Assembly (NCBI RefSeq): GCF_030052815.1
Contig: NC_079499.1
Span: 69,703,760 to 69,767,759, forward strand
Source of the DNA: Hevea brasiliensis
Taxonomy: Eukaryota > Streptophyta > Magnoliopsida > Malpighiales > Euphorbiaceae
Direction: 5' to 3'
Length of the DNA stretch: 64,000 bases
Made by a program: the position numbers and the translations under genes. The notes under the pieces are model-generated. The model had not been told where the DNA came from, did not search any database, and saw nothing but the letters and a program-made list of their open reading frames with translations. Below, in pieces: positions 433-61,945 of the stretch; the stretch's first letter is position 1, and each line of letters begins with the position of its first letter.

Positions 433-2789
433 TGTAACACCGCTATTTGGATAGCATGGTGTATTTCACTGATCCGGTGATTGATGTCGGTCTGAATAAT
501 TAAGGGGATTAGAACCACATCTAAGATAACTAGATAAGCCCTGAAGACAAATAATTAGTAATTGCCAAATAATTAAGTATAAATAAGAAAAATAGAACAC
601 AAAAAGTTAAATAAACCGAGAAACACAGCGATGAGTTTGAATTAGGACTATTGTGAACACAGTGGAAAAGAGAAAATCACGAAAATGAATTGTTAAGCAT
701 GTCAAATTATTAGGTCAGGGATCCAGAAGAAATATTGAATTATTTGCAAACCGGATCGAACCGGCGAGGGGCAATCTGGTCAATTTACCTCTAGAGCTGA
801 CTCTTGACTTAACTATCCAATAAAATTGGAAAAAAGAAAATTTCGGGATCAAGAATTAAATTAAAGAACTAAAGAAAAATAAATAAATAAAAAGAAAAAG
901 AAAAAGTTGAAAAAGTTTATTACATCATGCATGACATCATGCATGATGCAATAAACCTAACAATTAAAAAAATTTAAATTCTAGGATAATTTTGTCTTAC
1001 TAAAGGTTTAAAAATTCATAAAAGAAAAGAGAAAAAAATAAAATTCACTCTTCTTCTTCCTTGTTGCTGTGACCCATTCTCACTCTCTCCCTCACTTCAC
1101 CATTAAAACAACTCCCATAGAAGCTTGATCAAAGCTTTCAAAACCTCACTTTGTCCTCAAAAATCCCAATTAAACCTTGTTAACTTCACTTGAGAAAAAG
1201 CTTGAGCAAGAAAAGAAAAGAGGAATTGAGGAAGAGAAACTTCAAGTTGAGGTAAGAAATTAAATTGAAATTTAATGTTTAAAATACATATTTTGAGTTA
1301 CTTTAACTTAGATTTCATCCTTAAAATCAAAAGAAAACATGGTTGAGCGACCAAACATAAATTTTGGCTAGCTAGGGTTTAGGTTTGAGAATGAATGATT
1401 TTGATGCAAATGAAGAAGTAGTTAAGTGCAAAAGAGTGTAAAGGTATTAATTATGCATTTAGATTTTATCAAATAAGCTAAGCATGAAAATTAGGGTTTA
1501 GCACCTAGGGTTTTGGGAGGAAAAATGTGAGAATTAGCCAAATGATGTGTTTGACCTTACCTAAGTTGGAAAATGGTCATGTATGACCAATTGTGATGAG
1601 TAGAAAGTGTTAGAACTAAATTGAAATTCGGATTAGATATGGTCATTCTGCAGGCAGCATGACTAAGGTCCCTTTCAGGAATCAAAATTGAAATTTTACC
1701 AACCCAATTGGTGTGAGGCTAATTGGGAATAAAACTAGACACAAAATGGCACATATTTTATTAGGAATCATGCCTAGAAAGTGACCATAACTTAGTGAAC
1801 AAATTAGCCAAATCCGGATTAGGCAAATTGACCTATACAAAAATGACCAAATAAACAGGTTTGTTCATTTGGCCATAACATTGGCTAGGCAGGTCCAAAT
1901 GACCTGAAATTTTACCAATAGAAAGCCGAGACATAGCCCTACAACTTTTATAAGGAATAAAAGTCCAAATTATACCCTTAACCAAGTCATTTAGCCACCC
2001 AAAGTTAGTGAGCCAAAACTGCCAGAACCAAATTAGGTGCCAAAAAAATCTGGGTTAGACCTATCCGACCGGCCATGTTCAAATCACTATAACTTGAGCT
2101 AAAAAACTCTAAATAGAGTGATTCAAAAAGGAAAATAAAGTTAAGAAAATAAGGAACAACTTCTATGAAGAAAACTTAGCCAAATTCTAACAGCAACATG
2201 ACCAATGTAACAGTACAAAATAGGACACCAAAATTGAAAATTTGAAATTTATGCCTAAAAGACTTAAGATTTGAGAAAACAACCAAAACCAACAAATTAG
2301 GTAACCAAAATGTGGTATGTGGGTGAAATTAGAATTCCCATACCTATTAAGCATTAGAAAGTCAATCAATTTGACTTGAATAGTCTCGTGAATACAATTT
2401 TTAAAGAATGAAAAGTTTCGCATATTAAAGCTAGGTATAAGTATATTTGAATTCATTTTTGGACTTATGATAAATTGTGATACTGAAACACTATGAAATT
2501 ATGTGTTTTAGTTGAAAAGAATACCGGGAAAGAACCCGAGGCATCGAGTTAAGGCCAAGAGGTGACTCGTTTAAGGTTTGTGGACAACATCAATATTCTT
2601 TAAAATTCATTTACAAAATGCATGTAATGAATTGCTTATATTGTAAAATGTGTATTATGGTTTTGACTTAAATTGTTGAAAGTTTATTTGTTTGTGTTTG
2701 AAATGGAAATAAATGTTTGATAAATTATTAAGATAGTTTTGAAACCACAGTGTCATGACTATATATTTGAATATCTCACTAGCATGACT
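433..2789 (+). mobile_element. Solo LTR s1 (Tekay type), 5' part
   Basis: It starts TGTAACACC and is homologous, in reverse orientation, to the LTRs of Tekay-1. It holds a pyrimidine-rich leader (about 1060-1100), a donor-like GAG|GTAAGA at 1252 and several diverged copies of the CCATAACT module. The part ends at TGACT (2785-2789), where Tekay-1 was inserted. No gene is present; the short minus-strand open frame at 2187-2456 lies in LTR sequence and matches nothing. Together with 14421-15497 the LTR is about 3.4 kb and has no internal region on either side, so it is a solo LTR. Confidence 0.88.
2785..2789. repeat. Target-site duplication of Tekay-1
   Basis: TGACT here and TGACT at 14416-14420 directly flank the terminal TG and CA of Tekay-1. 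The flanks rejoin s1 at a site whose homologue in Tekay-1's own LTR reads CACTAGCACGACTAGTGG. Confidence 0.93.
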
Positions 2790-10098: not shown

Positions 10099-11106
10099 AT
10101 GGCCTTTGCCTCCACAGTTAAAACAGGCTCCAGTGGCCCAATAGCATTCCCCCCCATGAATCTTGCCACAAGTCTCACAGGGCGAATATGAACCGCTGAT
10201 CGCCGACTAGACCTAGGGGTCTCGACTGAAAATCTGCCTCTGCCACCGCCACCTCGACCCTGCTGGGTCCACTAAACTTCTTTTTCTTTCCGAGGTAGCA
10301 CCGTAACTCGCTCAACTGATTTTTCCCCCTTGTCTTTTCTAATTTCTCGACTTTTTCCTTCACCGGGTTTGCTTCGCTTCAACTCTCTCCAATTCAAGTG
10401 CTTGAGACATAAGCTCGAGAAGTTCTTTGTGTCGAAATCCTACAACTTGCATCCGTATGCTGGGCTTCAAACCCGTTTCAAATCTCTTGCACCTTGCCTT
10501 ACTGGTAGTAAGGAGACTCTCCGCATAGTGACTCAAGCGGGAGAACTCCCTCTCATACTCCACCACTAATCGATTTCCTTGTTTTAAGCTCAAAAATTCT
10601 TGCAGTTTCTGATCAACATATGCATCTGGGATGTATTTTTGTCTAAACTCTCTGATGAAGTCATCCCAGGTCAGCACTGGTGGTTCTGCCAAGCTGTGGG
10701 GGATGGTCTTCCACCAATCATATGCATCCCCTTGCAGTAGCGACACAGAATATTCAAACTTCAACTCATCTGGGCAGTGCAATTTCTTAAACACTCTGTC
10801 CATTCTTTCGAGCCATTGCTCTGCCTTCTAAAGGGTCCACAGATGCTTTAAATTCTGCAACCCCATACTTCAATAATTTATCATATTGTCCGGCCGAGGC
10901 GGTGGTTGTGCCACAGTGGTTGGGGTGGAGCTTGAACGGGCATACCTGACCATTTGTTGAAACATCGCAGCCATCTCAGGCGAATCGTGCAGAAATCGCG
11001 GCATTTGTGGGGGTGTCGCTGACCAACTAACATTCTCGCAAAGTCGGGCTTCCCCTTGTGCCTCGGCTTCAACAGATCGCTCAATCGAGCGATCCCCTTC
11101 TTCCAT
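10099..11106 (-). pseudogene. Tekay-1 gag with CCHC zinc knuckle
   Basis: The N-terminal frame is 10870-11106 (MEEGDRSIERS); the core gag domain is 10360-10803 with LERMDRVFKKLHCP, VSLLQGDAYDWWKTIP and REFRQKYIPDAY. The nucleocapsid end has CETCGKIHGG and then CFNCGGKGHMAKDC, a perfect CX2CX4HX4C knuckle at about 10096-10137. Frameshifts at about 10180 and 10360 and stops at about 10805-10870 interrupt the frame. Gag would form the virus-like particle and bind the RNA. At the codon that is TAG in Tekay-2 and Tekay-3 this copy still has Gln (SLLQGDAY). Confidence 0.88.
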
Positions 11107-11293
11107 TTTAGTCTGAAGTTAGGGTATCTCCTGAACAAGTAACACATGGAGATTTCCCTCCGTTAGTTCATATTCATGATGTAATACACTGTATGTAACA
11201 ATTATGGACATTGAGCAGTTGTACTTAACAAGAAAGACACAAATTTATATGTTAAAACATACTTCAAAAATTTGCTCTGATACCACTAAAACA
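11107..11293 (-). other. Tekay-1 5' leader with primer binding site
   Basis: Between gag and the 5' LTR. The PBS is at 11274-11285 (sense TGGTATCAGAGC, complementary to the 3' end of initiator tRNA-Met), separated from the LTR by 8 bp. The other bases are AT-rich leader with no recognisable signal. Confidence 0.88.
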
Positions 11294-14200
11294 TGTCACA
11301 CCTTACCCCTCTGTAAGGCATCACATGATCCCGTAGAATACCTAATGAACTACCGCACTTCACCTACCGATAACTCATTAAGTACCCTACAAGGGATTTT
11401 AAAACAATTTTCCTATTTTTGATAAGTGGTGAGCATTTCTAATAAGTGTTTAAAACATTTAGTTGAATTTAAAACTAATTAATATTTTTGGCCATTTTAG
11501 TTTTCCGCAAATTTTATAAAAATTTTGACAGAGTTTCCTCTGTATTTTGAGAAAACCGTTCTTCGAATACCTGTAAAAAGCACTTCTAAAAGTTTTTCTC
11601 AACCACTACTTCAGTTTCACAATCAAACTCAATCAATTTCTCAAGATTCACAAGTTCAATAATTCTCAAAATACTGTCAATCAATATCATTCATATTTCA
11701 TTAAAAACAAAACAATTTGTACACAACCTTACAAATTTATATCAAAAGAAACACAAACTAAACTTTATTACAAACTTCATACAAATTTGTGTACAAGCTG
11801 CTCAAGACCCATTTTTACATGTCCATACATTTATGTGCAATATATACATCAAAAGAAGTATTTACGCTAGGGTATAAATTATACCCAAGGCTTCAAGTGA
11901 TGACTTCACACACCTCAAGACTCGATCTGCTTCCTCTAGTTCTCAGATCTGCATAAAGAATAAAGCTATCGCTGAGTACTAGGACTCAGTGGTGCACAAT
12001 ATACTAAAATAATCTTTATGCAAAACTTAAAGCACATTCATTCAAAAATTTGGCTAAACATGAAAATTAAATACAATCATGCATTGTGAGATTTTACATG
12101 TAAACCAAGTTCATTTCAAAGTATCAAAACACATTTCATAAAACCCACGCTTAGATCACGCCATTCAAACAAATAGAATCTCAATAGCCAGAGGCTAAAG
12201 AGAAATCACATGAATCTCAATAGCCCGAGGCTAAAGAGAAATCACATCACAAGGCTAGCTAGCTCAAATATATGGATATCCATTCACATCCTCTTCTACT
12301 GGCACACCTCAACACTTCTCCAGAGAAGGAATCAAAATTCGAAACTAATTACCCCACTAGTCGTGCTAGTGAGGTGTTCAAATATATGGTCATGACACTG
12401 TGGTTTCAAAACTTATCTTAACAATTTGCTAAACATTGTCATTTCAAATATACACAATAACTTTCACAATTTAAATCAAACATCATAAAAATGCTATAAT
12501 CCAATATTTCACATTATTCAAAACATTATGCAAAAGATGATTATAAAAGTATATGTTGTGCACAAACCTCAAACGAATCGCTGTTGGCCTTGACTCGACT
12601 CCTCGGGTTACGTCGGTATTCTTTTCCACTGAAACACGAAATGTTCCAATGTTTCAGTACAAAAACTTAACATAAATCCAAAATATACTGAACTTCACAT
12701 TTACCTACCAATAACGTGTTAAATTCGAAGTTCTCGAAATTTTGTTTTTCGGTTTACTATTCACTGCACTATTCAAGTCAAATTATTGACTTTCTAAGGC
12801 TTAATGGGTATGGGAACTCCAACTTCACCCACATACCACATTTTGGTCACCAAACTTGTTGGTTTTGGTCATTTGTTTAAAGCTTAGGTCATTTTGGCAA
12901 AATTGCCAATTTTCGTTTTGGTTCTCCGAAGTTGTACTGTTCCATTGGTCGATCTACTGTTGGAATTTGACAAAAATTCCTTCATAGAAAATGTTCCTTA
13001 TTGTCTTAAGTGTATTCTCATTTTTGGATCACCCCAATCGGAGTTTTGTAGCTCAAGTTATGGCCAAAATAAGTTTCTTGTTCACATGTCTTGTTCATCT
13101 TGAGATATTAGTGCTGGCAGATTTTTGGTCCAACTTTGGTTAATAATTTGACCAAGTTAAGTTCATAATTTGGTCTCACTTTCTTCATATGAAATGTTGT
13201 ACTATGTCTTAGGTTTCCATCGGTTCAAGAATCGCCTAAATCCGAGTTTTCTAGAGAGAGTTATAGCCATCCAAACATTGCTGCTCAATGAAAATTCTGC
13301 AGAATCTCAGTACAGTAATTTAATTTTGCTCAATGATTTTGAAAGGGTTAATGGCCTAATTTGGGTTGGTGTTCTTCATGAAAGTTTTAGGTCTATATCA
13401 TATCTAATTGTTGGTAAAATTTCAGGTCAATTTGACCTACCTAGCTCGAGTTATGACCACTGTTCATTTGGTCAGTTTAGTGCAGTGGCAGCATGCAATC
13501 AATCCACTTTGGTCAATTGTTTCACCAAGTTTTGGTTAGTTTTTGGCCATAGTACAACATTTCACATTCCTTCTTATGCTTCTTCTATACTCTTCAAGAT
13601 GCAATAATGAAATTCATGTGGAGAATTTTAGGGAAAGCATGTTTAATTTAGGGTTTCAAAAGCTTGGTTAGACTTATCCATGGTGGAAGATGAAATAAGT
13701 GAGAGGGAAGAGTGAGTCACGTTTTTCCTTTTGAAGATGATGAATTTAATTTTTTTTTCTTTTGTTTCTTTTATTTATTTTGCTATGGAAGACCATAAAT
13801 ATCAAATTTAATAAATATTTAATAAATTTGTTTATGACATCATTAATGATGTCATCAACTTTGACTTTTCCAACCTCTTTCCTTTTCTTTTTTTTTTCTA
13901 TTTATTTCTCTATTAGTTCTTTAATTTTATTCTCGATTCCGAAATTTTCTTTTCTCCGATTTTATTTGACAGTTAGGTCAGGAGTCAGCTCTCGGGGTCA
14001 ATTGACCAAATTGCCCCTCGCCGGTTCATCCCGGTTTGCAAATAATCCAATATTTCTTGGCTCACGACCTAATTATTTGACTGGCTTAACAGTTCTTTTT
14101 CGTGGTTTTCTCTTTTCCACTGTGTTCATAAGGGTCCTAAGGACCGCAGCGTCACTTTTTACTGTTCGAAATTTGAGTTTAGAATGACTTCGCAGTCATT

Positions 14201-14420: not shown

Positions 14421-15497
14421 AGTGGAGGAAATCAGTTTCGAATTTTGATTCCTTCTCTGGCTGAAGTGTTGAGGTGTGTGCCAGTAGAAGAAGAAATTGA
14501 ATGGATATCCATATATTTGAGCTAGCCAGCCTTGTGATGTGACTTCTCATAAGCCTCTAGCTATTAAGATGATTATTGTTTCGAATGGCATGATATACTG
14601 TGTATTTTTATGAAATTTGTTTTGAGACTTTCGAAATGAAATTGTTTGGATTAAAAGCTTATAAATCATATTTTGTATTTATTTCTCATATGCAATTTAG
14701 TTTTTGAATAAGTATGATTTAAATTCTGCATAAAAGTTATTTTAGTATGTTGTGCACAACTGAGTCATAGTACTCAGCGATGCCTGTTATTGCTGTCGCA
14801 GATATAGAGACTAGAGGAGCAACAGAGTGAGCTACTGAGGATCTTGGAGCCACATCCCTGAAGTTTTATCGTATATATTTTATACTCTCAATGTAATAAT
14901 TATTTTGATGCATGTAAATGTATGCACAAGTAGAACTGGTCATGAGCAGTTATATAAAGTTTGTAATAATATTAGTTTGGATTTTTTTAATGTAAATTCT
15001 GGATGGATGAATATAATTTGTTTTAACTTTACTAAAATATGAATGAAAGTATTTTGTTTTAATTTGAATAAAATTACTTAGTATTATTTTGGATGATATT
15101 TGAATTGGAAATTATTGACTTGAATTTTAGAATTTGAGAAATGATGTTGAAATTTGTTGTGATGGATGTTGAAGCTGTTGAATTGATAAGATAAATCATT
15201 GGAAGTGTTTTTTTTAGGTATTTGAACAACTATTTTATCAAAATACAGACGGCACTCTGCCGAAATTTTTCTAAAATTTGCAGAAAAATAAAAAAGGATA
15301 AGAATTTTAACTAGTTTTCAAACTCTAATTAAATGTTTTAATACCTATTAGAAAATGCTCACCACTTCTAAAAAGTAAGAAAATGATTTTAAAATCCCTT
15401 GTAGGGTACTTAATGAGTTATCGGTAGGTGAAGTTTGGTAGTTCATTAGGTATTCTACGAGATCACGTTATGCCTTACAGAGGGGTAAAGTGTGACA
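14421..15497 (+). mobile_element. Solo LTR s1, 3' part
   Basis: It continues s1 after Tekay-1 and its target-site copy (14416-14420). It carries the hairpin, the acceptor ending at 14801, an AT-rich probable polyadenylation region (about 14880-15060), and ends GGTAAAGTGTGACA. The small open frame 14301-14525 crosses the Tekay-1/s1 junction and is not a gene. Confidence 0.9.
14760..14777 (+). other. Conserved LTR hairpin (s1)
   Basis: CTGAGT-(6 nt)-ACTCAG followed by CGATGCC, 24 nt before the YAG at 14801. Confidence 0.7.
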
Positions 15498-21953: not shown

Positions 21954-22457
21954 TGTAACATCCTCATTTTAGCTAGTCCGTACAGTTTACTGTTCCGATG
22001 ACCAGTGTTGATCCAGACAGCTAGAACGTTCAGAAAAATATTTAAACTAAAGTGAGGAACTAAAAATAAACTCAAATAATTAATAAGAAAAAAAATTTAG
22101 GAAAAATTATAAAATAATTTTTGGGACTCCAGAGAAGGGTTATTGAGGTTCTTATGGCATTAGAATGCCAAGAAAATACTTAGAAAAATTTTTCAATTGG
22201 TAAAGACAATTTTGGCCCGTTAAGCCAAACGGAGGGCATTTTGGTCATTTCGTCTTCAGAGATGATTTTTGGGCCAATTTGTCCAATTAAATAAATAATT
22301 TATATAACATAAAATATGATTAAATGTTGTTAAAAATTTAATTGAAATTAATTGGACAAAAAAAGGATGGAAAAATGAAAGAAATTGAAATTATGAAATC
22401 ATAAGGATTTCATTAAAAGTCTCCAACCCAATCAAGTGTTGACACATGTCACCAAGG

Positions 22458-22467
22458 TATATAAAAG
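22458..22467 (+). promoter_or_regulatory. TATA box of Tekay-2 5' LTR
   Basis: TATATAAAAG about 505 bp into the LTR, followed within 60 bp by a pyrimidine-rich stretch typical of plant core promoters. Repeated in the 3' LTR at 39710-39719. Confidence 0.72.
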
Positions 22468-22714
22468 AGACAAAATGGGCAGAAAGTGAAGAAGAAAAAT
22501 AAGACCTCCTCTCTCTTCTTCTCCTTAACGTAAAACCTCCACCATTGCCCTCCATAACCAAGCTTTACCCAAGCTTGATTTCTTGGGTTTCTATCCATTA
22601 AAACTTAAATTTCTCAACACAAAAACTTGCTCTTACACCTTGGTATTTCTTTTGGGAGCAAAAAGAAGAGGAAAACATGAGCTTTAGCAAGTGAAAAAAT
22701 CTCACTCCTTTGAG

Positions 22715-24405
22715 GTTAGTGACCCAACTATGAATTTTTCTTTAAATTTATGTTAAGAACTTTGAATATGTGTAAATTGCAAAGAAAAATTATTGAATAC
22801 CATTGGGATGGAAACCCTAGATTTTTGGTAGCCATGATTAGGGTTTGATTGTGTTGAGTTTAATGAAATTAAAAGACTATCATGGCTGCCCATAATATGT
22901 ATTTACTAAGTGAATTGAAGAAATGCAATGAAAATGAATGAAGGGTAATGTGTGAGTTAGGGTTTGGGGTGGAAAAATGGGATTTTGACCATGTGATGAT
23001 GAAAATAGATTTTAATATTCAATTAGTGACCATTTAGTTCTGTTTAAACTAAAAATGAAGTGTGTTGAATGATGGAATTGGGTTTGGTGTGACTACCATG
23101 AAAGTGACCTGCAGAATGGAGTGACCTGCAAAATTGGACTTGAGTCCAGTAGCTTTGGGCAACCATAACATAAATTGTAGAGGTTCAATTGGTGCAAGGC
23201 CAATTGGACATGAAACTAAACACATAATGGCACAACTTTGGTGAAGAAACCATTCCATAAAACCAAACCAAGTGGACCAAAAGCTTGCCTTAATCCGGGT
23301 GACCTGCAGTCTATTTCTGCAAAATGACCAAATGAACAGTGATTGTTCATTTGGCCATAACTCAATGTAGAAAGGTCCAATTGACCTGAAATTTTAGCAA
23401 AAACAAGATGAGATATAGACCAACAACTTTCATGAAGGAACCTAACCCAAATTATGATCAGAACCTATCCAACAAGTGAGTTGTAGTCACTATTCACTGC
23501 ACTATAGATATGATCAGTTTAGAAAAATTTCAATCCGGCCAGTTGTGGTTTTTGGACCATAACTTGAGTTACAAAACTCCAAATGGAGTGATTCAAAAAA
23601 GGAAATTCAATTAGACAAAATAAGAAACAGCTTTCATGTTGATCATTTTGCCAAATTCCCACTGCAAAATTGACCAATGGAACAGTAAATATAAGGTATG
23701 AAAACTGAAAATTCTACTAAATTAATATTAAGCTTAGAAATGGTTTTGGCAACCAAAACCAACAAGTTTAAAATGCAAAATGTGGTATATTGGTGATATT
23801 AGAACCAATGTACCTATTGCCTATGCAAAAGTCAATATTTTGATTGACTAATGAAGTGAATAGTAATACCAAAACTTGAAATTCAAAAATTGTGAAACTT
23901 AAAAGTGTAAAATGCCCTAGTATACCTAATAAGATTGGTTTGGATAGCTTGGCATGCCAATAGGGTTCTATTAGCAGTACTGCTTATGGCTTTATGCCAT
24001 TTTGTGTTTCATGGCTCCTATGCCATTATGTGACATAATAGCCTTTGGCTATGTTATTTGAGTTGATATACTTGGGTTTTAACCCTGATAATTATTACAG
24101 CTTATTAGTCGCATTACATTTGCCTGGAGACACAATGTGACCGATGGTGTGATGGTCAGAGGTACTTAGTACCCAGTGCCAATTTACCCATTTATCCAGT
24201 CCAGTCAATTAGTATGGGTTACTCGGGCAATGTTAAAGAACCTTACCAAAATTTTAATTGAACAAAAATGCAAATAATATCAGAAGTTAAGTCTACCAAA
24301 AATTGTAAACACACATTCTGCATCTTTGTTTTATCATATTTTATTTTATTTTATATTGTCACCACTAAGCAGAATTGCTTAGCACGTCACTTTTGCCACA
24401 CGCAG
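22715..24405 (+). other. Predicted LTR leader intron (Tekay-2 5' LTR)
   Basis: TGAG|GTTAGTG to TTTTGCCACACGCAG|GTACT, 1691 bp. Removing it would join a leader exon of about 225 nt to the U5-side exon and take out many upstream ATGs before gag. Both sites are present in the 3' LTR and, with variation, in every other Tekay-type LTR here that includes the region. Inferred from conservation and spacing only. Confidence 0.5.
24365..24382 (+). other. Conserved LTR hairpin (Tekay-2 5' LTR)
   Basis: CTAAGC-AGAATT-GCTTAG. Arms differ from the Tekay-1 family at two paired positions, keeping base pairing. It lies 23 nt before the predicted acceptor. Confidence 0.72.
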
Positions 24406-24945
24406 GTACTGGAGACCTAGTAAGGGAGCCCAGCAGACATCAGACGGGGTGAGTCTTCAGAGCTGCATCAGGAGTCCAGAGTCACCTCACATCTGCACTG
24501 CATATGGTAGGACATTAGGACTATAGGTGACCCTTTTGTATTTTGCATTTTGTATTGGTTTGGATTGTAATTATAAACTCCTGTAATTATGTATTAATGT
24601 AAATATATGAAATCTCATATTATTGAGGTTTTCTGCATTATGTATGTTGAAAAATGAAATGTTGAGACTTTGAGATTGACTTGAATGTGTATAATGTAGT
24701 TTGGATTTGGAAATTATTTTGGAAGTGTTTTTAAACAGGTTCAGAAGAACTATTTTTTCAATTTATAGCCGGCACTCTGCCGGATTTTCTATAAGATTTG
24801 CGGAAAAATCCAAATTTATAAACAATTGAAAATAAATGAATTAAAAGGGATAAATTGTATTAGAAACATAAGTTGGTGCTCCAGCACACTGAGTGGCATA
24901 ACTTGCTCGGCTACACTGTAGACGAGTAAGGGGTGTCACATTTAG

Positions 24946-24957
24946 TGGTATCAGAGC
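24946..24957 (+). other. Primer binding site of Tekay-2
   Basis: TGGTATCAGAGC, 5 bp after the LTR, complementary to the 3' end of initiator tRNA-Met. The stretch from here to gag (24958-25068) is leader without other recognisable signals. Confidence 0.92.
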
Positions 24958-25068
24958 ATCGGTTTAGGCATTTTTGGGCCTAAATAGAGTGCATACCATT
25001 ACATTGCATTTGTAAGTGTTGAGGCGACGCTAATGCAGATCTGTTTGTTTTCTTATTTTGAATAGGAC

Positions 25069-26150
25069 ATGGATCTTGCTTCGCAAAGAGCAGTTGATGA
25101 AGAGGTGGAGAGTCATACTCCACCAAGGGCTGAAATGCAGGGCGAGGAGAATCTGCTCCACCAGCAGCTGAGGCACATGCCCAACCTCAGTTTGCACTAT
25201 TTCAACAAATGACCGAGTTTTACCAGCAAATGATGGGGGCAATTCCATCACCACAACCACAGCCACAACCTCCACCAGCACCACAGAAATCTCATCTGGA
25301 GAAATTGAGGAAGCATGGGGTTGTGAATTTCTTTGGAAAGAGGGAAGATGATCCCATGGCCGCAGAAAATTGGTTGGATAGAACCAACAAAGTGCTGAAA
25401 CAGCTAAATTGCACCCCCGAGCAGAACCTGGTGGGTGTTGTGTCCCTACTTTAGGATGATGCATATCAGTGGTGGGACACAGTAACCAGTGAGGTGCAAC
25501 CTGAACGGATCACCTGGGAATTCTTCCTCACAGAGTTCAGGAAGAAATATATTAGCAAAGTGTATTTAGAAGAGTGAAGAAGGGAATTTATCAGTCTAAG
25601 ACAGAGACAGTTGTCAGTGGCTGAGTATGAGCATGAATTTGTCAGACTGAGCAGATATGGGAGGGAGAAAATCCCTACAGAGGTAGAGAGGTGCCGAAGG
25701 TTTGAAGAAGGGCTCAATGACAACATCAAAGTCATGATCATAGCATTGGAAATCACAAATTTTGCTAAGCTAGTGGATGCTACATCAAAAGTGGAAAGGG
25801 TCAGAATCAATGAACAAAATAGAAGGGAAAGATAGCAGAAGAGGGGTTCGGGCCAGTCCAGTACATTTTCTGCTCCTAGTAAGAAGAGTAAGGGTCCTCC
25901 TACTCAGAGTTTAGGACCACCACAGGGTCAGGGTCAATCTAAGGGGTCCAAACCACAGTTCACACCTATGAGAGGCCAGTCCATGCCATCAATGGGCAAC
26001 TCTCCAGGGACGGTGTTTAGGGGACCAGCCCCTTCATCTTCTGCTTGTTAGTACTGTCAGAAGTGGCACAAAGGGGATTATTGGCGAGTGATTGGTGCAT
26101 GCTTATGGTGTGGATCGACAGAATACCAGATCAAAAATTATCCGAAGAGG
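25069..26150 (+). pseudogene. Tekay-2 gag
   Basis: It starts MDLASQRAVDEEVESH at 25069 and a frameshift follows near 25160. Frame 25209-25454 carries a Pro/Gln-rich stretch, then LEKLRKHGVVNFFGKREDDP, the entry of the retrotransposon gag domain. Stops at 25452 (TAG within SLL*DDAYQWW), 25575 (TGA) and 25833 (TAG) interrupt the rest, which still reads FLTEFRKKYISKVY and VAEYEHEFVRLSRYG. The zinc knuckle near 26040-26145 (YCQKWHKG then [15 protein letters not shown]) is degenerate: a stop precedes it and the second unit has lost its last Cys and His. Confidence 0.9.
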
Positions 26151-31259: not shown

Positions 31260-31261
31260 AT

Positions 31262-33890: not shown

Positions 33891-33894
33891 CAAG

Positions 33895-38579: not shown

Positions 38580-38584
38580 AGAAC

Positions 38585-49695: not shown

Positions 49696-51953
49696 TGTAA
49701 CACCCTCACTGTAGTAATTCCGTATATTCTACTATTCAGGTGACCGGTGTCGATCCGGACAGCTAGAACGTTTGGAAAAATATTTAGACTAAAGTGAGGA
49801 ACCATAATTAACTCAAATAATAATAAGAAAAATTTAGGAAAAATTTTAGAAATAAAATACAACCAAGTTAAATGAGCAGGTGCCCTAGCGATGGATAACC
49901 CAGTGGGAAGTTGCGGTCCTTGCAGCTAGAAGCCCTAAACTCAGGAGAAAATTCATAAAATAATTTTTGGGACTCCAGAGAAGAGTCATTGAGGTTTCGA
50001 TGGCATTAGAAGGCCAAGAAAATGTTCCTGAAATTTTATCAATCGGTATAGGCAATTTTAGCTCAACAAGCTAAATGAAGGGCATTTTGGTCATTTCACC
50101 TTCAGAGATGATTTTTGACCAACTTGTCCAGTCGAGTAAGTAAAATTTATAACATAAAATGTGAATAAATATTGATGAAAAATTTTTTAAAAATGATAAA
50201 TGAAAGTAAGAAAACAAAACAAAAAGAATTTCAAGATAATGTTAATTATGACATCATAATGATGTCATTTAAAATTGATCCACCAATCACCATTCAACAA
50301 ATACACTTAAAACAAATAAAAAGGGATGAAAAATAAAATCAAAATCTACTTCTTCTTCCTTCATACCAACCAAACTCTTTCCCTTTCTATTCTACATTGA
50401 TGCTCTTACTTCTCTCTAAAAGTTCCTTGTAAACACACAATAAAATCACTTGTTAATTTCACAAAAATTGGTCCTTGCAACAAGAACAAGCCTAAGACAG
50501 CAAAAAGAAGAAGGAATTAAGAGGTTAGGGTAGCTTGGACTCTCCTAAGCAAGGTTAGTGCTCATCCCTCCTTTCCTTTTTTCCTTATTCTTACAATTAA
50601 CGGTGATTAAGTATAAATTCCATGAGCAAAACTGAAATTTATGCATGAATGATGAGACACAAATTTCAGCCAGCAAAGGAAGTTGATAATCTTGATGTTT
50701 TCTTTTGATTAAATTTTGTTTATTAACATCAATTACAATGTTTACTTGAGCCATAATTGAAGATTGCATGAGTTATATGAGATGTGAAGTATGGAGTTAG
50801 GGTTTGGGGCACAAAATTTAGATTTTTCTCATGTGTTAGCAAATGGAAGTTCTAATGGTCAATTAGTGACCATTTGGCTAAGTATAATGAGGAATTGAAG
50901 TGAATTGTAGCGTTGGATTTATGGTTGGGTGTGCTGCCTTGAGCGCCCTGCAGGTCTAGATGTGAGTCCAGCATGTTTGGGCAGCTATAACTTTGGTTGT
51001 GTAGGTTCAATTGGTGCAAGGCCAATTGGACATGAAATTAGATACATAATGGCACAACTTTGATGAGGAACCCTATCTAGAAACTAAACTTAGCGTGCCC
51101 TAAAAATTGACTAAATCCAGGTAGCGCTAATTCTACCTAGGCAAAATGACTAAATGAACAATGTTCATTCATTTGGTCATAACTCAATGTAGAAAGGTCC
51201 AATTGACCTGAAATTTATATCAATGGAAAGATGAGACAATTTAGAACAACTTTTATGCAGAACATAATCTCAATTTCTAGACTTAACTAAATGAAATTGC
51301 TAGCCAAAGTTGGACTACCAAATCTGGCAAAACCAAAAATTGTCCAGAAATTCTGGGTAAAGGCAATCCGACCAGTTATGGTGCAATAGCCATAACTTGA
51401 GCTAGAAAACTCCAAATGGGGTGATTCGAAAAGTGAAATGTAACTAGACACAATAAAGAACAACTTTGATTAAGAACACTTGGCCAAATTCTCACTGTAT
51501 AATGGCCTAATAGAACAGTGAACTCTAGTACCCAAAAATTGAAATTTTGATTTATTTTCCATTGGTTAGAAGTATGGATTGGCAACTAATGCCAACACTT
51601 TTGGGAACCAAAATGTAGTAAATTTATGTGATTAGGACTCATGTAACTATTATGTTGGAAAGTCAATAATTTAACCTAAATAGTAAAATAAATAGTAACC
51701 TTACATGTAAAACATGAAAATTCAATCAATAACTTTGTAATGTGCCCTTATAGGTTAAGATTGGTTTGGATAGGTTGGCATGCTAATAGGGTTCAGTTAG
51801 CAGTACTGCACATGGCATTAAATCATTCTATGATTCTATGGTTTTTATCCATTCTGATATCAGTGTGATACTTTGCCTTATGCCCAATGTTTATTACAGC
51901 TTATTAGCTGTTCTGTTGCACACTGAGAGACACATTGTGACCGATGGTGTGAC
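49696..51953 (+). mobile_element. Solo LTR s3 (Tekay-2-like family), 5' part
   Basis: TGTAACACCCTCACTG start, similar along its length to the Tekay-2 LTR. Donor-like CAAG|GTTAGTG at 50554, preceded by a CTTCTTCTTCC leader; modules at about 50985, 51175 and 51390. Ends at GTGAC (51949-51953), the s4 target. Length with 55610-56540 is about 3.2 kb. No gene. Confidence 0.9.
51949..51953. repeat. Target-site duplication of solo LTR s4
   Basis: GTGAC here and at 55605-55609, exact. Confidence 0.93.
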
Positions 51954-52561: not shown

Positions 52562-54724
52562 CTGCGACAGCAATAAAAAGCTATCGCTGAGACAATGTCT
52601 CAGTGGTGCACAACATTAATCAAATACAATTTAAAACACAATTCATAAGTCATGTAAATAGTGGATACTTAAAACTATAGTTAAATTCAAGACAATATTG
52701 TCATAAGGAATTTAACACAATATTACAATAAATCTCAGTAATCAAAACATAGCTAAATTCAAAAGACAGTGAATGTCAATAAGAATTTAAACTCATTTTA
52801 CAATCTTACAATATGCATCAATAAATCACACACAGCTTTAATCATGTTCCCAAGTTCAATTCATCCCAAAAGCCAATGGCTAATGAGGTATTCAATTCGT
52901 CCCAAAAGTCGATGACTAATGAGGAATAACATAGCTAGCTAGCAAAAATATGAGTACTCATTCTATTCGTCCTCAACAGGCATACACCTCAACACTTCAG
53001 CCAGAGAGGGAATTCAATTCATCCCACTAGACAAGCTAACGAGGAATACAATTAATGTACATGATAGCTGTGGTTTCAAACCAATTACAGTGCTTTTCAA
53101 TCAATAAGTATCCATCAAATATCATTCAAACCATTTTTCACAATTTCACAATTTAAAACAATAATATGCAAATAGTCATAATTTATTTCAATTGAAAATA
53201 ATTCAAAAGAAATAGTTGTTGTGCACAAACCTCTGATAACTGTCTCCGGGTCTGGACTCAGTATTTCCTTCCCTTTTCCTGAGTCTTTGGTAACTGAGAA
53301 ACACAATTTGAAGTGTTTCAGTACTAAATTAAACTGTCTCTAACGATAATGTTCGATAAGTAATTCACTGAAGACTATTATTTGCTCAATCACCTAATAT
53401 ACCGACCCTCGATGCGTTTTAGGTAAATTAGGTTTTAGTGTCATTAATATGTCACATTCGATAGGGTTTTAGGGTTGGTACGTTTTACCAAACTCATTTC
53501 TATGTATACTGCATTTTAATGCAACTTGCTGGATTTCGGGATACTAGTTTGACCTAGCCGGACGACCTAGTTCCCTCGGTTTTCGGGTTTCGGTTAAAAC
53601 AACAAACTTGTAGATCTATGTCTTATGGAACGCGGGGCAAAATTTTAGGTCAATCCGAGTTAAGTAGACCAAGTTATGGTCATCATACTATTGCTGGTCA
53701 AATGGCATCAAATTAGGTCAATTTTAGGTCAATTTGGTCAACTCTGGTTCGGCCAGTTTTTGGACCTGAACTTGTGCAAGTTGTTTGACTTACTTATGGT
53801 CATTTCTGGGTTTTGGTGTCTTCATAAGACTTGTAGGTATGGGTCTTAAATATTCATGGTTAAAATTTCAGGTCAATTGGACCTGTTTTGAGTGAGTTAT
53901 GGCCTAAACACTAACTGTTGCCCAATTGGTCAATTTTCAGGTTTCAATTGCACTTAATCCGAATTGGTCATTTTTCATGTCATCTTGCAAGCAGAATTTT
54001 GGTATGCTTTCTCAATGAAAGTTTGCACATTTTGTGCCTAGTTTCACCTCCAATTGGTCTCATACCAATTGAGGTTACACATTTAAAGTTATAGGTTAAA
54101 ATGCATACTGCCCTTAATTACCTTGCTTAAACCTACATCAATGACACATTTACCTTACTATATGTTCACTTCCCTTACCAACTCTGTTTTGGTACATTAC
54201 CAAAACCATATACCACTTCACTTTAAATTCACTTTGGGCATATTACAATTATCCTCAATACACCAATTAAAACTCAAATTTACAAAGTCTAAGTACAATC
54301 ACATATACACCTACACATTACTAATTCTTACATACACTTTACACAATCACTCTATATACATATCCATCAATCCTCAATGTCAATATTCTGCCAATACCTT
54401 CATAAACACATACATTTATCCAAGAGTCCCAAGGCTGCCGAAAATCTTCACCATGCCAAAGTGTCCTACAATTCATCAATTTTCATTCCAAGTGCACAAT
54501 CACCATATACATGTGGAATAATTTACTAGGATATTAAATCACCCTAATCAACATCATTTCTCATCAAATATATGTATAAATATTTCCTTAAATACATAAC
54601 TCCATAGCTGTCCAAAATGAACATATCAATAACTCCTCAAACTTGAAAATTTTCTTCACAAATCCAACACCCATAACATGTACACAAAGTTTAACAAAAC
54701 AATATTCAAAAAATGTAAACTTAC
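52562..54724 (-). other. Predicted LTR leader intron (s4)
   Basis: ATAG|GTAAGTTT, a near-consensus donor, to TTTTTATTGCTGTCGCAG, a near-consensus acceptor; 2163 bp on the minus strand. Confidence 0.52.
52587..52603 (-). other. Conserved LTR hairpin (s4)
   Basis: CTGAGAC-AAT-GTCTCAG: seven pairs and a 3-nt loop. The arms differ from Tekay-1 and Tekay-2 at paired positions. 25 nt from the acceptor. Confidence 0.72.
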
Positions 54725-55609
54725 CTATGGTTGGAACTTGCTAAACCTTGATTAAACTTCTTGATTTTGGTATCAAGCTCTCCCTTATGATGTGTAGACA
54801 AATTTTTATGAAGCTATCTAAGTGATTGGAGTTGAAATGGAGGAGTAGATCAAGCTCATGCAAAAACGGCAATGGTGGTTTTCATTTCCTTCAATTCGGC
54901 TAGGTTAAGGGAAATGGAGAAGATGAAGTATTCAGCTGGTATAGTGGACTTACATCTGCCCCATTTTATGTTTAGTTTATTCATTAGTGGCCCACTCACA
55001 CAAATAATCATATTATAAGTTAAATTCCCACTTATTCCACATTAAACCCTTAATTCTTGTTATTTACTTTAGGTACCACTAAATTAATTTTTCATTTTAT
55101 TTTCTAAGTGTAATATTATTTATTTTTAATGGAATTTTAGGTCAAAAGATAATTCGGGATGTCGATTGACCATAATGCCCCTGTTCGAGTTGCATTCCCG
55201 ATTTTTCAGTAACACCGGGTTTTGTCTGTTTTTCCATTTCTCACTTTTCCTTGTACTAATAATCTAATTTTTCTTTGATATTTCTAATGATATTCCTACT
55301 TCCATTGATGTCTCTTTAAGTCCTAAAAATATTTTCCAGGGTTCCCCGCAGTCCAGGGCTAGTCAACGGTCCACGCCGTGACTTCCCGGTGCGGTCACCC
55401 ATTGCTAGGGTTCTCGGCTCGCTTAACTTGATTACATTTCTTTGCTATTATTTTTCCTTTGTTTTTCTTGTATTTTCTTTTCTTGTATTTCATTATTTTA
55501 TGTCTCCTCACTCATATTGAAGTGTAGTTCTAGGCATCCTAGCTGTCCGGACAACACTGGTCACCGGAGCAATAGAATGCACTACCGAACTTAGGGGTGT
55601 TACAGTGAC

Positions 55610-56540
55610 GGCCTGAGGTACTTGGTACCCAGTGCCAGTTTACCCGTTTATCCAGTCCAGTCATCCAGTATAGGTTACTTGGGTAACCAAAAATGGAAGT
55701 TGATAAACTTAATAAAATAATTGATATAACAAGTACCAAATAAATAGACTACAAGTAATTACAAAAAATTTGTCTGCATGAGACATCAATATATACACTG
55801 CATGTTTATTTCTTTTTAGTTCTTTTCATTTTATTATTAGCACCACTAAGCATTATTGCTTAACACGTTGCTTTTTGCCACGCGTAGGTTCTGGAGACAC
55901 TTACAGAGAGCCCAATAGACCATAGATTGAGTGAGACCGTTCACAGTTCTGCATAGTGTCCATGTCACCTCACAGACTTTAGTGCATTGGTAGGACACTA
56001 GGTCCCATTTTGGTATTTTGTACTGTTTGTATTTTATAATTAAACTTTTATTTTCTCATGTATAGTTGAAACTCATGTAATATATTTTGGTATTAATGCA
56101 AATATTTGTAATTTATGTTTATGAATGAAAATTGAGTATTTATTTATGATTTGTACATGATTATCATGTGAAATGAATGAATGACAAATGGAACCATTTT
56201 TGAGAAATGGTTGAGAAATATTGAGATTATGTTGATACAATGGAGTTTGAAAATGATTGAAAATGTATTGGAAGTGTTTTTCATAGGTTCCGAAGAACTG
56301 TTTTCTCCATTTTTAGCCAGTATTCTGCCGGATTTTCTAAAAAAAAAAATTTCGGAACCTCAAATTAATTTAAAATTTCAATAAATGACTTAAATGAGTT
56401 AAATTTCACAAATTGCACTTCATAACCATGAAGAAATAAATTAAGAAATGATAAAAAAAATTGAGATAAAATATGGTGTTTCGGTATACTGTGTGACAGA
56501 TCTTGCTCGGTTATACTATAGATGGGTAAGGGGTGTTACA
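55610..56540 (+). mobile_element. Solo LTR s3, 3' part
   Basis: Continues s3 after s4. Hairpin 55846-55863 (CTAAGC-ATTATT-GCTTAA, one closing pair lost), acceptor ending at 55887, AT-rich poly(A)-like stretch 55990-56130, end GGGGTGTTACA. The frame at 56181-56384 is not a gene. Confidence 0.9.
55846..55863 (+). other. Conserved LTR hairpin (s3)
   Basis: CTAAGC-ATTATT-GCTTAA, five of six pairs kept, 24 nt before the acceptor. Confidence 0.62.
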
Positions 56541-56802: not shown

Positions 56803-57426
56803 TGTCACACCCTACCCCTCTGTAAGGCATCACATGATCTCGTAGTATACCTGATGAATTACCAACTCCGTCTACTGATAACCCATTAAATACACTACAA
56901 GGGATTTTAAAAACTTTTCTTACTTCTTTTACAGTGGTGAGCACTATTTACAGGTGTTAAAGACTTTGGTGAACTGAAGTGAAGCAACTAACTCATTTGA
57001 TTTATTTAGAATATCTGTAAAAATTTTGGCAAGGTGCCATTTGTATTTTGGACAAAACAGTTCTTCAGAAAACCTGTAAAAAGCACTTCAATTATTTTCC
57101 AAATCTCAACTCCAACATTTTTCTCAATACAACACATTTCTCAACTCAATTCCATAGAAATTTTTCAAAGTCTGAGATAAGGAAATATAATACAATTTTT
57201 ATAAGTCAAATAACTCATAATAAATTTACAACTTCAAGGTACAATCTGAATTTACAACTGCTCAAAACCAAAAACAAAATGTACATACAGTGTCATACAT
57301 TACAGTACAAAATACAAAATATTGGTATACTCATTATACCAGGTAATCCCTCCTTTGGATGTATTAGCGGCCTAGTCTGCTGCCACTGTCTGTCTCTCTA
57401 CTGCGGCGACAATAAAAGCTATCATT

Positions 57427-57441
57427 TGAGACAATGTCTCA
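57427..57441 (-). other. Conserved LTR hairpin (s5)
   Basis: TGAGAC-AAT-GTCTCA, with the next pair changed to a T/G wobble-type pair. About 25 nt from the acceptor. Confidence 0.65.
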
Positions 57442-57586
57442 GTGGTGCACAACATTAATCAAATACAATTTTAATTCACAATTCATAAATCATATCAATA
57501 GTGGATACTTAAAACCATAGTTAAATTCAAGACAATGAATGTCATAAGGAATTTAAACTCCAATTCACAAATTATCAAAATTCATA

Positions 57587-58010
57587 ATAACACAATTTAG
57601 TCAAATAGTTTAAGAATACTGTATTGCCAATTCATGCACAATTTGATCAAATAACTGAATAATACCTTTTTGCAAATCAATAACACAATTCGATCAAATA
57701 ACTGAATAATATCATTTTGCAAATCAATAACACAATTCAATCAAATAACTGAATAATATCGTTTTGCAAATCAATAACACAATTGATCATTATTCAGTTT
57801 TGCAAATCAATAACACAATTGATCAAATAACTGAATAATATCGTTTTGCAATTCAATAACACAATTGATCAAATAACTAAATAATATCGTTTTGCAAATC
57901 AATAACACAATTGATCAAATAACTGAATAATATCGTTTTGCAAATCAATAACACCATTCGATCAAATAATTGAACAATACAATGTTGCCAATCAATAACA
58001 CAATTTAGGT
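57587..58010. repeat. 46-47 bp minisatellite in s5
   Basis: About eight units of the form AATAACACAATTGATC, AAATAACTGAATAAT, ATCGTTTTGCAAATC. The unit at 57780-57808 is shortened and has AACTGAATAAT replaced by its reverse complement. Absent from s4. Confidence 0.88.
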
Positions 58011-60949
58011 CATGACACAAATTTTTCCATATATTCCGTGTTGTACACCACGACAAGACATACTCACCCCAATAATCGAAATCAATGAGGGAGGAAGCTA
58101 GCTATCTAATGAGTACTCATCCACACTCACCTCGGACTGGGAAGTCAAGAGGGAGGAACATAATCATACTCACCCCAGACTGATAAGTCAAAGAGGGAGG
58201 AATAATCACACTCACCCCATTAATGGAGGAGGAACATAATATCCGTGTCATGCCAATTGTGAGTCAAAACAATTCCAAACATTTTATTCAAATGATCCGT
58301 AAGAATCCAATAAATTTCCAAAGTTATAATTTCATTCACAAAATGGCAACACAATTCGTAATTCACTTCAATTTCCATAAAAACCATTTACAGTGCTTTT
58401 CAATCAATAAGTATCCATCAATATCATTCAAACAATTTTTCACAGTTTCAAACCATTCACAATGTTTTTCAATCAATAAGTGTCCACCAAACACATTTCC
58501 ACAATTTAAAACAATAATATACAAATAGTCATAATTTATATCAATTGAAAAATTCAAAAGAAATAGCCGTTGTGCACAAACCTCTGATATTTATCTCCTG
58601 GTCCTGACTCAGTATTTCTTTCCCTTTTGCTGAGTCCTTGTTAACTGAGAAACACAATTCGAAGTGTTTCAGTACCAAATTAAATTGTCTCTATCGATGG
58701 TGTTTGGTAAATAATGCACTAAACTCAATTATTCACTTAATCACCTAATATACCGACCCTCGTTGCGTTTTAGGTAAATTAGGTTTTAGTGTCGTTAATA
58801 TGTCACATTCAATAGGGTTTTAGGTTTGGTACGTTTTGCCAAACTCGTTTCCTTGTTTAGTGCATTTTAATGCAACTTGCTGGATTCCGGGATACTGGTT
58901 TGACCTAGCCGGACGGCCTAGTTCCCTCGGTTTTCGGGTTTCGGTCAAAACTACAAACTTTTAGATCTAGGTCTTATTGCACGCGGGGAAAAATTTCAGG
59001 TCAATCCGAGTTAAGTAGACCAAGTTATGGTCATTATACTATTGCTGGTCAAATGGTACCAATTTAGGTCAATTTGGTCAACTCTGGTTCGGCCAGTTTT
59101 TGGACCCGAACTTGTGCAAGTTGTTTGACTTGCTTATGGTCATTTCTGGGCTTTGGTGTCTTCACAAGACTTGTAGGTATGGGTCTTAACTATTCATGGT
59201 TAAAATTTCAGGTCAATTGGACCTGTTTTGAGTGAGTTATGGCCTAAAAACTCACTGCTGCCCAATTGATCATTTTTCAGGTCCTAATTGCACCTAATCC
59301 TAATTGGTCATTTTCTTAGGTCACCTTGCAAGCAGAATTTTGGTATGTTTTCTCAATGAAAGTTGGCACATTTTGTGCCTAGTTCCACCTCCAATTGGTC
59401 TCATACCAATTGAGGTTACACATTTAAACTTATTAGCTAAAATGTACACTGCCCTTGGTTACTTTGCTTAACACACATCAATCACACACATTTACCTTGC
59501 AATTTGTTCACTTCCCTACCAATCTGTTTTGGTACATTACCAAAAGCATATTCTACTTTACATTAACATTACTTTGGGCAGATTATAATTACCCTCAACA
59601 CACCAAATATAATTCACATTTACAAATTCTAAGTACCATTACATACACACCTAACCATTACAAATCTTACATACACTTTACAATATCAATCTACATACAT
59701 ATCCATCAATCCTTCTAGGTCAATATTCTGCCTACACTTCCATGAATACATACATTTACTCAAGTGTTCCCAAGCTGCCGAAAATTGTCCTTCAACATCA
59801 AAGTGTCCTACAATTTACCAATTCCCATCCAAGTGCATAAATCACCATATATATGTGAAATAATTCACTAGGATATTAAATCACCAAGATCAACATTATT
59901 TCTCATCAATTATATGCATAATAAATCATTAAATGTGTGACCCCATGGCTGTCCAAAAATGGCTATCTCAATAACTATTTAAACTTTAAAATTTCCTTCA
60001 CCAAACTAACACCCATTACATGAACATAAAGTTTAACAAAGGAATTCTCAAAAATGTAAACTTACCTTTGATTGTAATTTGCTAAACCTTCACCAAACTT
60101 CTCAAATTTGGTATCAATATCTTCCTTGTGATGTGTAGACCATTTTTGATGAAGGAACTCAAGTGATTAGAAGTGAAATGAGTGGTTAGATGAGCTTGCA
60201 TGAAAAATGGCCATGGTGGTTCCCATTTTCTTCAATTCGGCAATGTTTATGAAATGAGGAAGATGAACATTCTGATGGGTTTAGTGGACTTACATCAGCC
60301 ACATTTTATGTTTAATTTAATCCTTTAGTGGTCCACTTACTCATTTAATCATATAATAATGCTTAAATGTGTTATTTACACATTTTTCACTCCATTTTTG
60401 GCTATTTACTTTATGTACCACCAAATTAATTTTTCATTTCATTTTCTAAGTGTAATATTATTTATTTTTAATGGACATTTAGTTCAAAAGACACTTCGGG
60501 ATGTCAAATGACCATAATGCCCCTGTTCAGGTGGCATTCCCGATTTTTCGGTATTACCGGGTTTTGTCTGTTTTTCGATTTCTCACTTTTCTTTGTACTA
60601 ATTATTTAATTTTTCTTTAATCTTTCTAATGAGATTTATACTTCAATAAGGGTCTATTTATGTCCTAAAAATGTTTTCTAGGGTTTCCCGCAGTCCAGGG
60701 CCAGTCAACGGTCCACGCCGTGACTTCCCAGTGCGGTCACCCATCGCTAGGTTTCCCGGCTCACTTATTCGGTTACATTTCTTTGCTATGATTTTTCCTA
60801 TGTTTTTCTTGTATTTTCTTTTCTTGTATTTCATTATTTATGTCTCCTCTCTCATATCAAGGTGTGGTTCTAGGCATCCTAGCTGTCCGGACAGCACTGG
60901 TCACCGGAACAGCAGAACGCACTACCGAACTTAGGGGTGTTACATTCAA

Positions 60950-61945
60950 TTCCTTACAAATTTATTTATAATAATTTATTTATTTTTATTAAATAGAGAA
61001 ACTACAAGAGTTTTCCCTAAATTTTAACAATTCACCTCTTAAAATATTATTCATAACCTATTAAATCCTCAATTTTCATATCATTTCTATCACATAGTAA
61101 TCATCAAATTTCATCATTATCACTTTCCAATCATTCCTGTCATATAAGTTTCGTCAAATTTCATCAACATCAATTTTTCACCTAAGTTGCATATACATAA
61201 GAAATATCTTTAATTTACAATTTTATTAACCAACTCATGTGGCTAAATTAAACTTTCATACTTATAATTACAATCTCCAAAATAAAGTTTACATAATATT
61301 TATTACAACATAAATGTACACACACGTATGAGTAAAAATATACAATGAGGATGATGATGATGCATCTACCCAAAAGTCTGAGATCAGGTGACTCTGGACT
61401 TTTCTGCAGATCCAATCTACCTCCTGTCAACCAAAATCTGCACTTTATCTACTATACCTGCGCAAGAAAATAAATCTCCACGCTAAGCTAAATAGCTTAG
61501 TGGTGCATTCTTAATTTAAAACAAAATAATTTCCATTATGTACATTAACACATAATATGCTAATAATATTCATACAAGAGTATTTAAAAATTTAAAAGCA
61601 ATTATAAAATATCATGACGTAAATATAGGTCAATAAATTCATACTTGTTAATCATACCATTTAATGAGGTTAAATGCACTTTATTAATTCAACAATCCTT
61701 TATGTTCATCGATCAGCCTTTATCATATTTTATTTTATTTTTATTTTTTTTGCCTTTATGATCACAAATGGGAGCTTTACTTCCATGTTCATATTAACCT
61801 ATGACAGATGGTATATAGACTAGATAATGGGACTCGCAGTGCTGACCACTCAGTGGTTCAGGTCAGTATAACACAAGCTTACATTATCGGTACTGACCAC
61901 TTGGTGGCTCTGACTGGTATATCACTGGCTTTCATTCTCGGTACT
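60950..61945 (-). mobile_element. Tekay-3 5' LTR, continued
   Basis: Resumes after s5. It has the sense order seen in the Tekay-2 LTR: an AT-rich part, GTGACTCTGGACTTTT, acceptor-like TTTTCTTGCGCAG ending at 61458, hairpin 61483-61500, and a diverged GATGGTAT...TGACCACT region. Cut at GTACT (61941-61945) by p6. No gene. Confidence 0.82.
61483..61500 (-). other. Conserved LTR hairpin (Tekay-3 5' LTR)
   Basis: CTAAGCT-AAAT-AGCTTAG: seven pairs and a 4-nt loop, 25 nt from the predicted acceptor at 61458. A further arm variant that keeps pairing. Confidence 0.72.

Follow-up and report, generated by a model that had tools for sequence, protein, structure and literature searches.

A candidate leader intron, strongly supported by sequence conservation, within the long terminal repeats of Ty3/gypsy retrotransposons of Hevea brasiliensis

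The long terminal repeats (LTRs) of a group of related Ty3/gypsy retrotransposons in Hevea brasiliensis appear to contain a conserved leader intron, an interpretation that is strongly supported by the comparison of LTRs within a single window, by which we mean the whole stretch of 64,000 nucleotides analysed here. A donor site (D1) and an acceptor site (A1) are conserved above background across LTR families, and the hairpin that precedes A1 shows covariation. Taken as a whole, the likely explanation is a spliceosomal leader intron, probably situated in the R region, whose removal would divide gag mRNA from the template for reverse transcription.

Nested LTR retrotransposons fill the window, as seen from self-comparison and target-site duplications (TSDs). 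Element E1 is bounded by two forward-strand LTRs, L1 at the 5' end (21954..24940) and L2 at the 3' end (39206-42202), which are 94% identical by self-BLAST (match to 39205-42202), and a tRNA-iMet primer-binding site lies at 24946. Element A (TSD TGACT) is on the reverse strand, with L5 (11294..14415) as its 5' LTR and L6 (2790-6462) as its 3' LTR. It is a younger insertion that splits the forward-strand LTR Lc, leaving D1 and A1 of Lc on separate pieces. The same has happened to L3, a forward-strand solo LTR (TSD AGGAG, read by eye) split by the younger insertion of S1, a reverse-strand solo LTR (TSD GTGAC); the 3' parts of L3 and Lc are called L3b and Lcb. The window also holds the reverse-strand solo LTR S2 (TSD TTCAA), the reverse-strand LTR L7, the forward-strand LTR L4, which is cut by the window end, and L8 (60945-61945, reverse strand), a remnant of the 5' LTR of the older reverse-strand element E5/E8. 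The halves of E5/E8 flank L3; they lie at 45119-49695 and 56541-56702, with the L3 duplication AGGAG at the break. Internal duplications are present in L7 (17808-18188, unit of about 192 bp) and S2 (57579-58005, units of about 47 bp and larger).

By BLAST identity, the LTRs can be grouped into families F1 (L1, L2), L3, L4, S (S1, S2), Lc, A (L5, L6), L7 and E8. D1 is held by seven families, all except E8, where the LTR start lies outside the window, and A1 by seven, all except L4. All of these sequences are related and come from one window, and the families are not fully independent. The proteins encoded in the window are Ty3/gypsy, except for one nested copia-type element (29182-38580) with RVT_2, LTRs of about 2.1 kb and the TSD AGAAC; a 35-bp tandem repeat (31509-31897) lies 3' of its primer-binding site at 31262. 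In E1, pol carries RVP_2, RVT_1 and RNase H in a single frame with an H2C2 integrase downstream, which is the protease-RT-RNase H-integrase order of Ty3/gypsy. Among the best 120 of 7945 scored proteins, most of them unnamed, the top named matches are plant gypsy pol, and the nearest protein with a name comes from Hevea brasiliensis, with 90% identity across 88% of the query. Pfam searches found SH3_Tf2-1 and no chromodomain up to E = 10; E1 and A each have a stretch, recognised by eye, that may be chromodomain-like. Placement in the Tekay (Del) clade follows the label given by an earlier, sequence-only reading of this DNA.

That reading had listed ten donors and ten acceptors, and each sequence was read at the coordinates given. 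Taken in the sense orientation of their LTRs, nine of the donors make strong 5' splice sites, scoring 8.0-11.0 bits with approximate plant consensus frequencies as weights, and they rank in the top 0.06-1.5% of GTs over both strands of the whole window. They share the motif AG/GTNAG, with GAG/GTAATC in L7 (the slash marks the splice site). A narrow MAFFT alignment places D1 in a single column in 9/9 LTRs keeping this stretch and in 7/7 families, every family representative reaching at least 8 bits. When the sequences were dinucleotide-shuffled and realigned 200 times, at most two families came together in a column, and two did so only once. Because shuffling ignores ancestry, all columns of a longer, real alignment were ranked too. 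This longer alignment was the first to be made and puts the L6 donor (5584) 18 nt off the donor column, which contains 6/7 families with a mean of 7.0 bits over the seven; the only column with more families (7/7) has a mean of 2.5 bits. On the antisense strand, one column with six families and one with five appear at a loose cut-off of 0 bits. The tenth proposed donor, at 44285 (TTG/GTATGT, 6.3 bits, top 4.6%), lies outside the donor column and was rejected, so the list of donors holds for nine of its ten members. Among the LTRs of the window, the donor and acceptor consensus are conserved above background, as seen in the splice-site scores and column ranks and, for the donor, in the shuffled realignments.

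The surroundings of D1 are far more variable than D1 itself. Identity between families is 34-55% in 40-column windows around D1, whereas the donor is the most conserved 7-column window, with an identity of 0.87 against a median of 0.42 (six families, L6 excluded). The next-best window (0.86) is a CACAAAA-like block at column 879, about 120 columns before D1, and a purine-rich AAGAAGA block at columns 943-955 or so, 40-60 nt upstream of D1, reaches 0.77. GAAGAA or AAGAAG is found 36-54 nt upstream of D1 in 7/9 LTRs (absent from S2 and Lc), with a background of 0.14 per 100 nt. Further upstream, 239-263 nt before D1, 8/9 LTRs have a TATA-like site followed by CT-rich sequence; none at that distance is listed for S2. 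In L1, L2, L4 and L7 the site is canonical and outscores any other within 400 nt; in L3, S1, Lc and L6 it is weaker, non-canonical and not the best-scoring over that distance. In L1 it lies at 22458..22467 on the forward strand, 255-257 nt before D1, and transcription would start about 30 nt downstream of it.

All ten of the listed acceptors are YAG, and here the earlier list stands complete. Nine share one column (9/9 aligned sequences), and the tenth, at 61458 in L8, has the same hairpin-YAG context. A1 scores 6.9-8.7 bits in 6/6 family representatives and 6.0-11.2 bits over all ten, within the top 0.01-5.1% of AGs; some of these are moderate, such as S2 (6.0 bits, top 5.1%) and L3b (6.3 bits, top 3.9%). 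A conserved AG in the 3' half of the LTR is not unique to A1, since nearer the LTR end there are three more AG columns that score, in 6, 5 and 5 of 6 families respectively. It is the hairpin upstream that sets A1 apart from them. An acceptor-like site at 24737 in L1 (T-rich, YAG/GT, in the last third of the LTR, 5/6 families) has counterparts in L3b, S1, Lcb and L6. The use of A1 itself as a donor (CAG/GTA in some LTRs) was considered and rejected; a GT follows the YAG in only 5/10.

The hairpin carries CACCACTRAG, has a 6-7 bp stem and is present in 10/10 LTRs about 20-45 nt upstream of A1. For example, it occupies 24360..24383 (forward strand) in L1, with the pattern CACCACTRAG...CTYAG, and in L8 the hairpin and A1 together span 61458..61505 on the reverse strand. 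Under the search used, hairpins of this type were found nowhere else in the window, where stems of at least 6 bp begin at 0.9% of positions. Its arms contain the branch-point-like motif CTNAG. Three of the seven stem pairs (3, 6 and 7) vary on both sides in a compensatory manner. With arms anchored on the stem, 65/70 pairs form, compared with a shuffled mean of 54.9 and maximum of 61, although arms picked for best pairing favour the observed value. A MAFFT alignment of the stem, which has a gap within the stem in three rows, gives 86.8% of cells pairing against 79.9 after shuffling (3/500 shuffles as high) and a covariation score of 0.235 against 0.118 (reached by 0/500). In the same alignment, the number of pairs with two-sided changes was equalled in 52/500 shuffles, the count of further pair types was not raised (492/500 shuffles), and sliding by -1 still gave a score of 0.230 although just 34% of cells paired. 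A second hairpin directly before A1 (GCGATAGC...GCTGTCGC in S1) is good in S1, L2, L3b, Lcb and L8, partial in S2 and absent from L1, L5, L6 and L7, and was dropped as a general feature. Rfam gave no match in the window at gathering thresholds, and a pol-based search of viral_contigs gave no relative; the hairpin pattern matched 21 stretches in viral_contigs, all lacking the downstream context and taken as chance.

Between these two sites lies the putative intron 1, delimited by the D1 and A1 alignment columns. On the forward strand it extends over 22715..24405 in L1 (from GAG/GTTAGT to CGCAG/) and 39967..41666 in L2; on the reverse strand it covers 52562..54724 in S1, 57401..60065 in S2, 3452..5584 in L6 and 16733..18952 in L7. 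In these six LTRs, which are uninterrupted between the sites, the distance is 1,691-2,665 nt, in agreement with the 1.7-2.7 kb that had been proposed. The interrupted or cut copies, all forward, are L3, with D1 and the 5' part of the intron at 50554..51953 (up to S1) and the 3' part, ending at A1, at 55605..55887; Lc, with the corresponding parts at 1252..2789 (up to element A) and 14421..14801; and L4, where D1 and the start of the intron (62832..64000) run to the window end. In L5, A1 is present at 11949 and D1 is gone; by BLAST against L6, a gap of about 585 bp in L5 has taken D1 and the start of the intron. The missing 585 bp or so are not the intron itself. The GC content of the intron is 0.32-0.35, and that of the first 100 nt after A1 is 0.36-0.54. 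T content differs little, as the assumed exon 1 (0.24-0.32) is just slightly below the intron (0.30-0.35).

The intron contains a core that is the part most shared among LTR families (23154..23473 in L1, forward strand, by BLAST; a further block at about 23553-23853), with counterparts in L2, L3, L4, S1, S2, Lc, L6 and L7. On average, BLAST matches from about five other families cover each base at L1 LTR positions of about 1200-1500, about three at 1500-1900 and none in the leader at 500-1000. An inverted repeat in the core, CAATTGG...CCAATTG, forms its central pairs in 9/9 sequences. Over the whole core, 4/22 predicted pairs differ on both sides in some sequence, with a covariation term close to zero. 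An 11-bp hairpin, CCAAATGAACA...TGTTCATTTGG, is found in L1 and L2 as well. The conservation of the core exceeds what an intron needs and was counted against the intron reading. Retroviral packaging signals often lie downstream of the donor, and for this reason the core could, speculatively, be a candidate packaging or dimerisation signal.

Sequence of the poly(A) type lies 3' of A1. In 10/10 LTR 3' parts, UGUA-type words number 6-12 in a 100-nt window that opens 82-149 nt past A1; over both strands, at least five words occur in 1.3% of windows and at least seven in 0.7%. These counts come from sliding windows, and fixed bins gave Lcb just 3 and 3. Similar clusters occur elsewhere in S1, S2 and L4, and the cluster after A1 is supportive, not decisive, for the end of R. 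Because of this UGUA-rich sequence, the whole intron may lie within R. Should transcription begin downstream of the TATA-like site and the poly(A) site fall in the cluster, R would be about 2 kb or more, with the intron in both LTRs.

Removal of the intron was originally proposed as a need of gag translation, and this claim stands in part. The intron is indeed rich in ATGs, with 52-68 in each of the six uninterrupted LTRs and 0-4 in the eight assumed first exons counted. However, its removal does not clear the leader. There are 11 ATGs from A1 to the LTR end in L1 and 15 in L5, and a further 1 (E1) and 5 (A) between the LTR end and the gag ATG, leaving 12 in E1 and 20 in element A between A1 and the gag ATG. 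Removal of intron 1 as sufficient for gag translation was therefore rejected, and a second splice, reinitiation or shunting would still be required.

Candidate sites for a second splice were noticed after the fact in three elements, E1, A and E5/E8, and a second leader intron is accordingly no more than a hypothesis here. A donor (D2, 7.2-9.2 bits) follows an exon of 35-43 nt in L1, L2, L5, L6 and L8; at the corresponding place L3b, Lcb, S1, S2 and L7 have a weak one or none. The GT directly at A1 is itself the best donor within the first 100 nt in L1, L7 and L8. Just upstream of the gag start, 3/3 elements in which the stretch survives have an acceptor (A2), which ranks first among the acceptors between the primer-binding site and gag in E1 and A and second in E5/E8. 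In E1 the candidate intron would extend over 24449..25065 on the forward strand, from D2 (GTGAGT) to A2, spanning U5 and the primer-binding site, and the probable gag ATG is at 25069..25071 in a gag copy that is frameshifted downstream. In element A it would extend over 11131..11913 on the reverse strand, from GAG/GTGTGT to A2 (TTGTTCAG/), with the probable gag ATG, the first 3' of A2, at 11104..11106. In both E1 and A the stretch from A2 to the gag ATG is free of ATGs. In E5/E8, where the gag start codon is not intact, the candidate A2 is at 56568 on the reverse strand, which is the final base of the AG preceding the region of the gag start. A splice from D2 to A2 would take U5 and the primer-binding site out of the leader of all three elements. 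The suggestion that splicing could separate mRNA from packaged RNA gains some weight, because A2 precedes gag in 3/3 elements and this removal would drop U5 and the primer-binding site. It had also been argued that genomic RNA must keep the intron. This would apply to the 3' LTR but not necessarily to the 5' leader, as a spliced 5' leader might be repaired by early strand transfer in the short exon after A1.

Together, these features suggest the following course of events. With a TATA-like site some 240-260 nt upstream of D1 and transcription starting about 30 nt past it, the first exon would be CT-rich and about 220 nt long, and it would close with a purine-rich (GAAGAA-type) stretch and a strong donor. 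The ATG-rich intron of 1.7-2.7 kb would end at the YAG behind the covarying hairpin, whose branch-point-like CTNAG arms may hold splicing partial, and given the UGUA-rich sequence after A1, R probably holds the entire intron. In at least three elements, splicing from D2 to A2 may then place the gag AUG near the cap, with U5 and the primer-binding site removed. The spliced RNA would serve as gag mRNA and the unspliced RNA as the template for reverse transcription. That every part of a fuller scheme applies jointly (a complete R intron in both LTRs, a two-intron gag mRNA without U5 and primer-binding site, a structured core that marks unspliced RNA for packaging, splicing limited by the hairpin and, where a spliced 5' leader is copied, strand transfer from the short exon after A1 that restores the intron from the 3' LTR) is possible but rather unlikely.

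Other explanations must be weighed against a leader intron ending at A1. It is unlikely, for instance, that D1 splices mainly straight to A2 with A1 as a minor or alternative site, so that a single long intron takes out U5 and the primer-binding site together with the remainder of R. The position of A2 just before gag in 3/3 elements fits such an arrangement, as does the lack of D2 in 5/10 LTR 3' parts, from which a separate exon 2 would not be general; however, A1 and its hairpin are kept in 10/10, and the five LTRs without D2 are unattached to an internal region in the window, where A2 could be examined. Somewhat less likely still is the use of two promoters, as has reportedly been found for BARE, with an upstream promoter for spliced mRNA and one near the A1 hairpin for a genomic RNA with a short R, whose U3 would then contain the intron. 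A short R could also start at a covarying hairpin that has UGUA-rich sequence within 82-149 nt behind it, and moderate TATA-like sites (5.7-7.0 bits) do occur 69-149 nt before A1 in L2, L3b, Lcb, L5, L6 and L8. But their distances are variable, no site within 160 nt exceeds 2.9 bits in L1, S1, S2 and L7, and T-rich sequence with a branch-point-like motif and a YAG fits the end of an intron better.

Two further readings do without splicing to A1. D1 could be a U1-binding site that acts against premature polyadenylation in a long, AT-rich LTR, which would suit both its standing as the strongest conserved feature and the GC content of the intron (0.32-0.35). This would leave the conserved YAG, the hairpin with branch-point-like arms and the purine-rich block before D1 unexplained, and we regard it as very improbable. 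Slimmest of all is the chance that ancestry alone is responsible, with D1 and A1 being chance matches kept from one ancestral LTR. The LTRs are all related and from one window, and antisense columns with five or six families above 0 bits exist too, but ancestry accounts poorly for a donor window at 87% identity in a leader at 34-55%, for a donor column that averages 7.0 bits where the lone 7/7 column averages 2.5, and for compensatory changes in the hairpin.

Parallels to a leader intron within the LTR can be drawn from several known systems. Among retroviruses, foamy viruses and HTLV-1 have their major splice donor in R, and as proposed here, the donor is in the LTR part of the leader and spliced and unspliced RNAs have separate roles. 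Their acceptors are outside the LTR and gag is made from unspliced RNA, whereas here the LTR contains donor and acceptor alike, and spliced RNA is the proposed source of gag. A major splice donor is named in PMC7828637. A December 2025 review (PMC12786077) describes plant LTR retrotransposons as generally without introns, with exceptions that include Ogre and EVADE. Ogre (Ty3/gypsy, Tat) and EVADE (Ty1/copia) have conserved facultative introns, as we propose here, but between or within coding regions and not in an LTR leader (PMC12786077 and PMC6317226). BARE1 of barley, according to PMC3735527, has an alternatively spliced gag RNA and separate RNA pools, with spliced RNA proposed for Gag translation and other RNA for replication, much as suggested here; its intron is 104 nt at the end of gag, in contrast to 1.7-2.7 kb of noncoding sequence inside an LTR. 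BARE1 is also Ty1/copia and the elements here Ty3/gypsy. The plant pararetroviruses RTBV and CaMV likewise have a long leader that contains numerous short upstream ORFs as well as a splice donor. In RTBV, however, a leader ORF is joined to a distal ORF; no LTR takes part, and shunting is the main route past the leader (PMC5902531).

Among the matches listed for open-licence PMC papers, no report of an intron inside an LTR was found, and none is described in the portions available of PMC12786077, PMC3735527, PMC6264596, PMC5902531, PMC7730604, PMC6317226 and PMC7828637. In a study of sunflower, two copia elements were spliced with a change in coding capacity, and its highly expressed set included no Tekay element (PMC7730604). 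The absence of reports may therefore reflect low expression.

An intron in R that takes up most of the LTR would, if real, account jointly for the length of these LTRs, the abundance of ATGs in their leader and the way in which translation conflicts with reverse transcription. In many plants a large share of the genome consists of LTR retrotransposons, and we know of no explanation for why some of their LTRs are very long. A leader intron also predicts that LTR copies lacking the intron should occur in genomes, and it would give annotators a way to place the transcription start and the R region of such elements.
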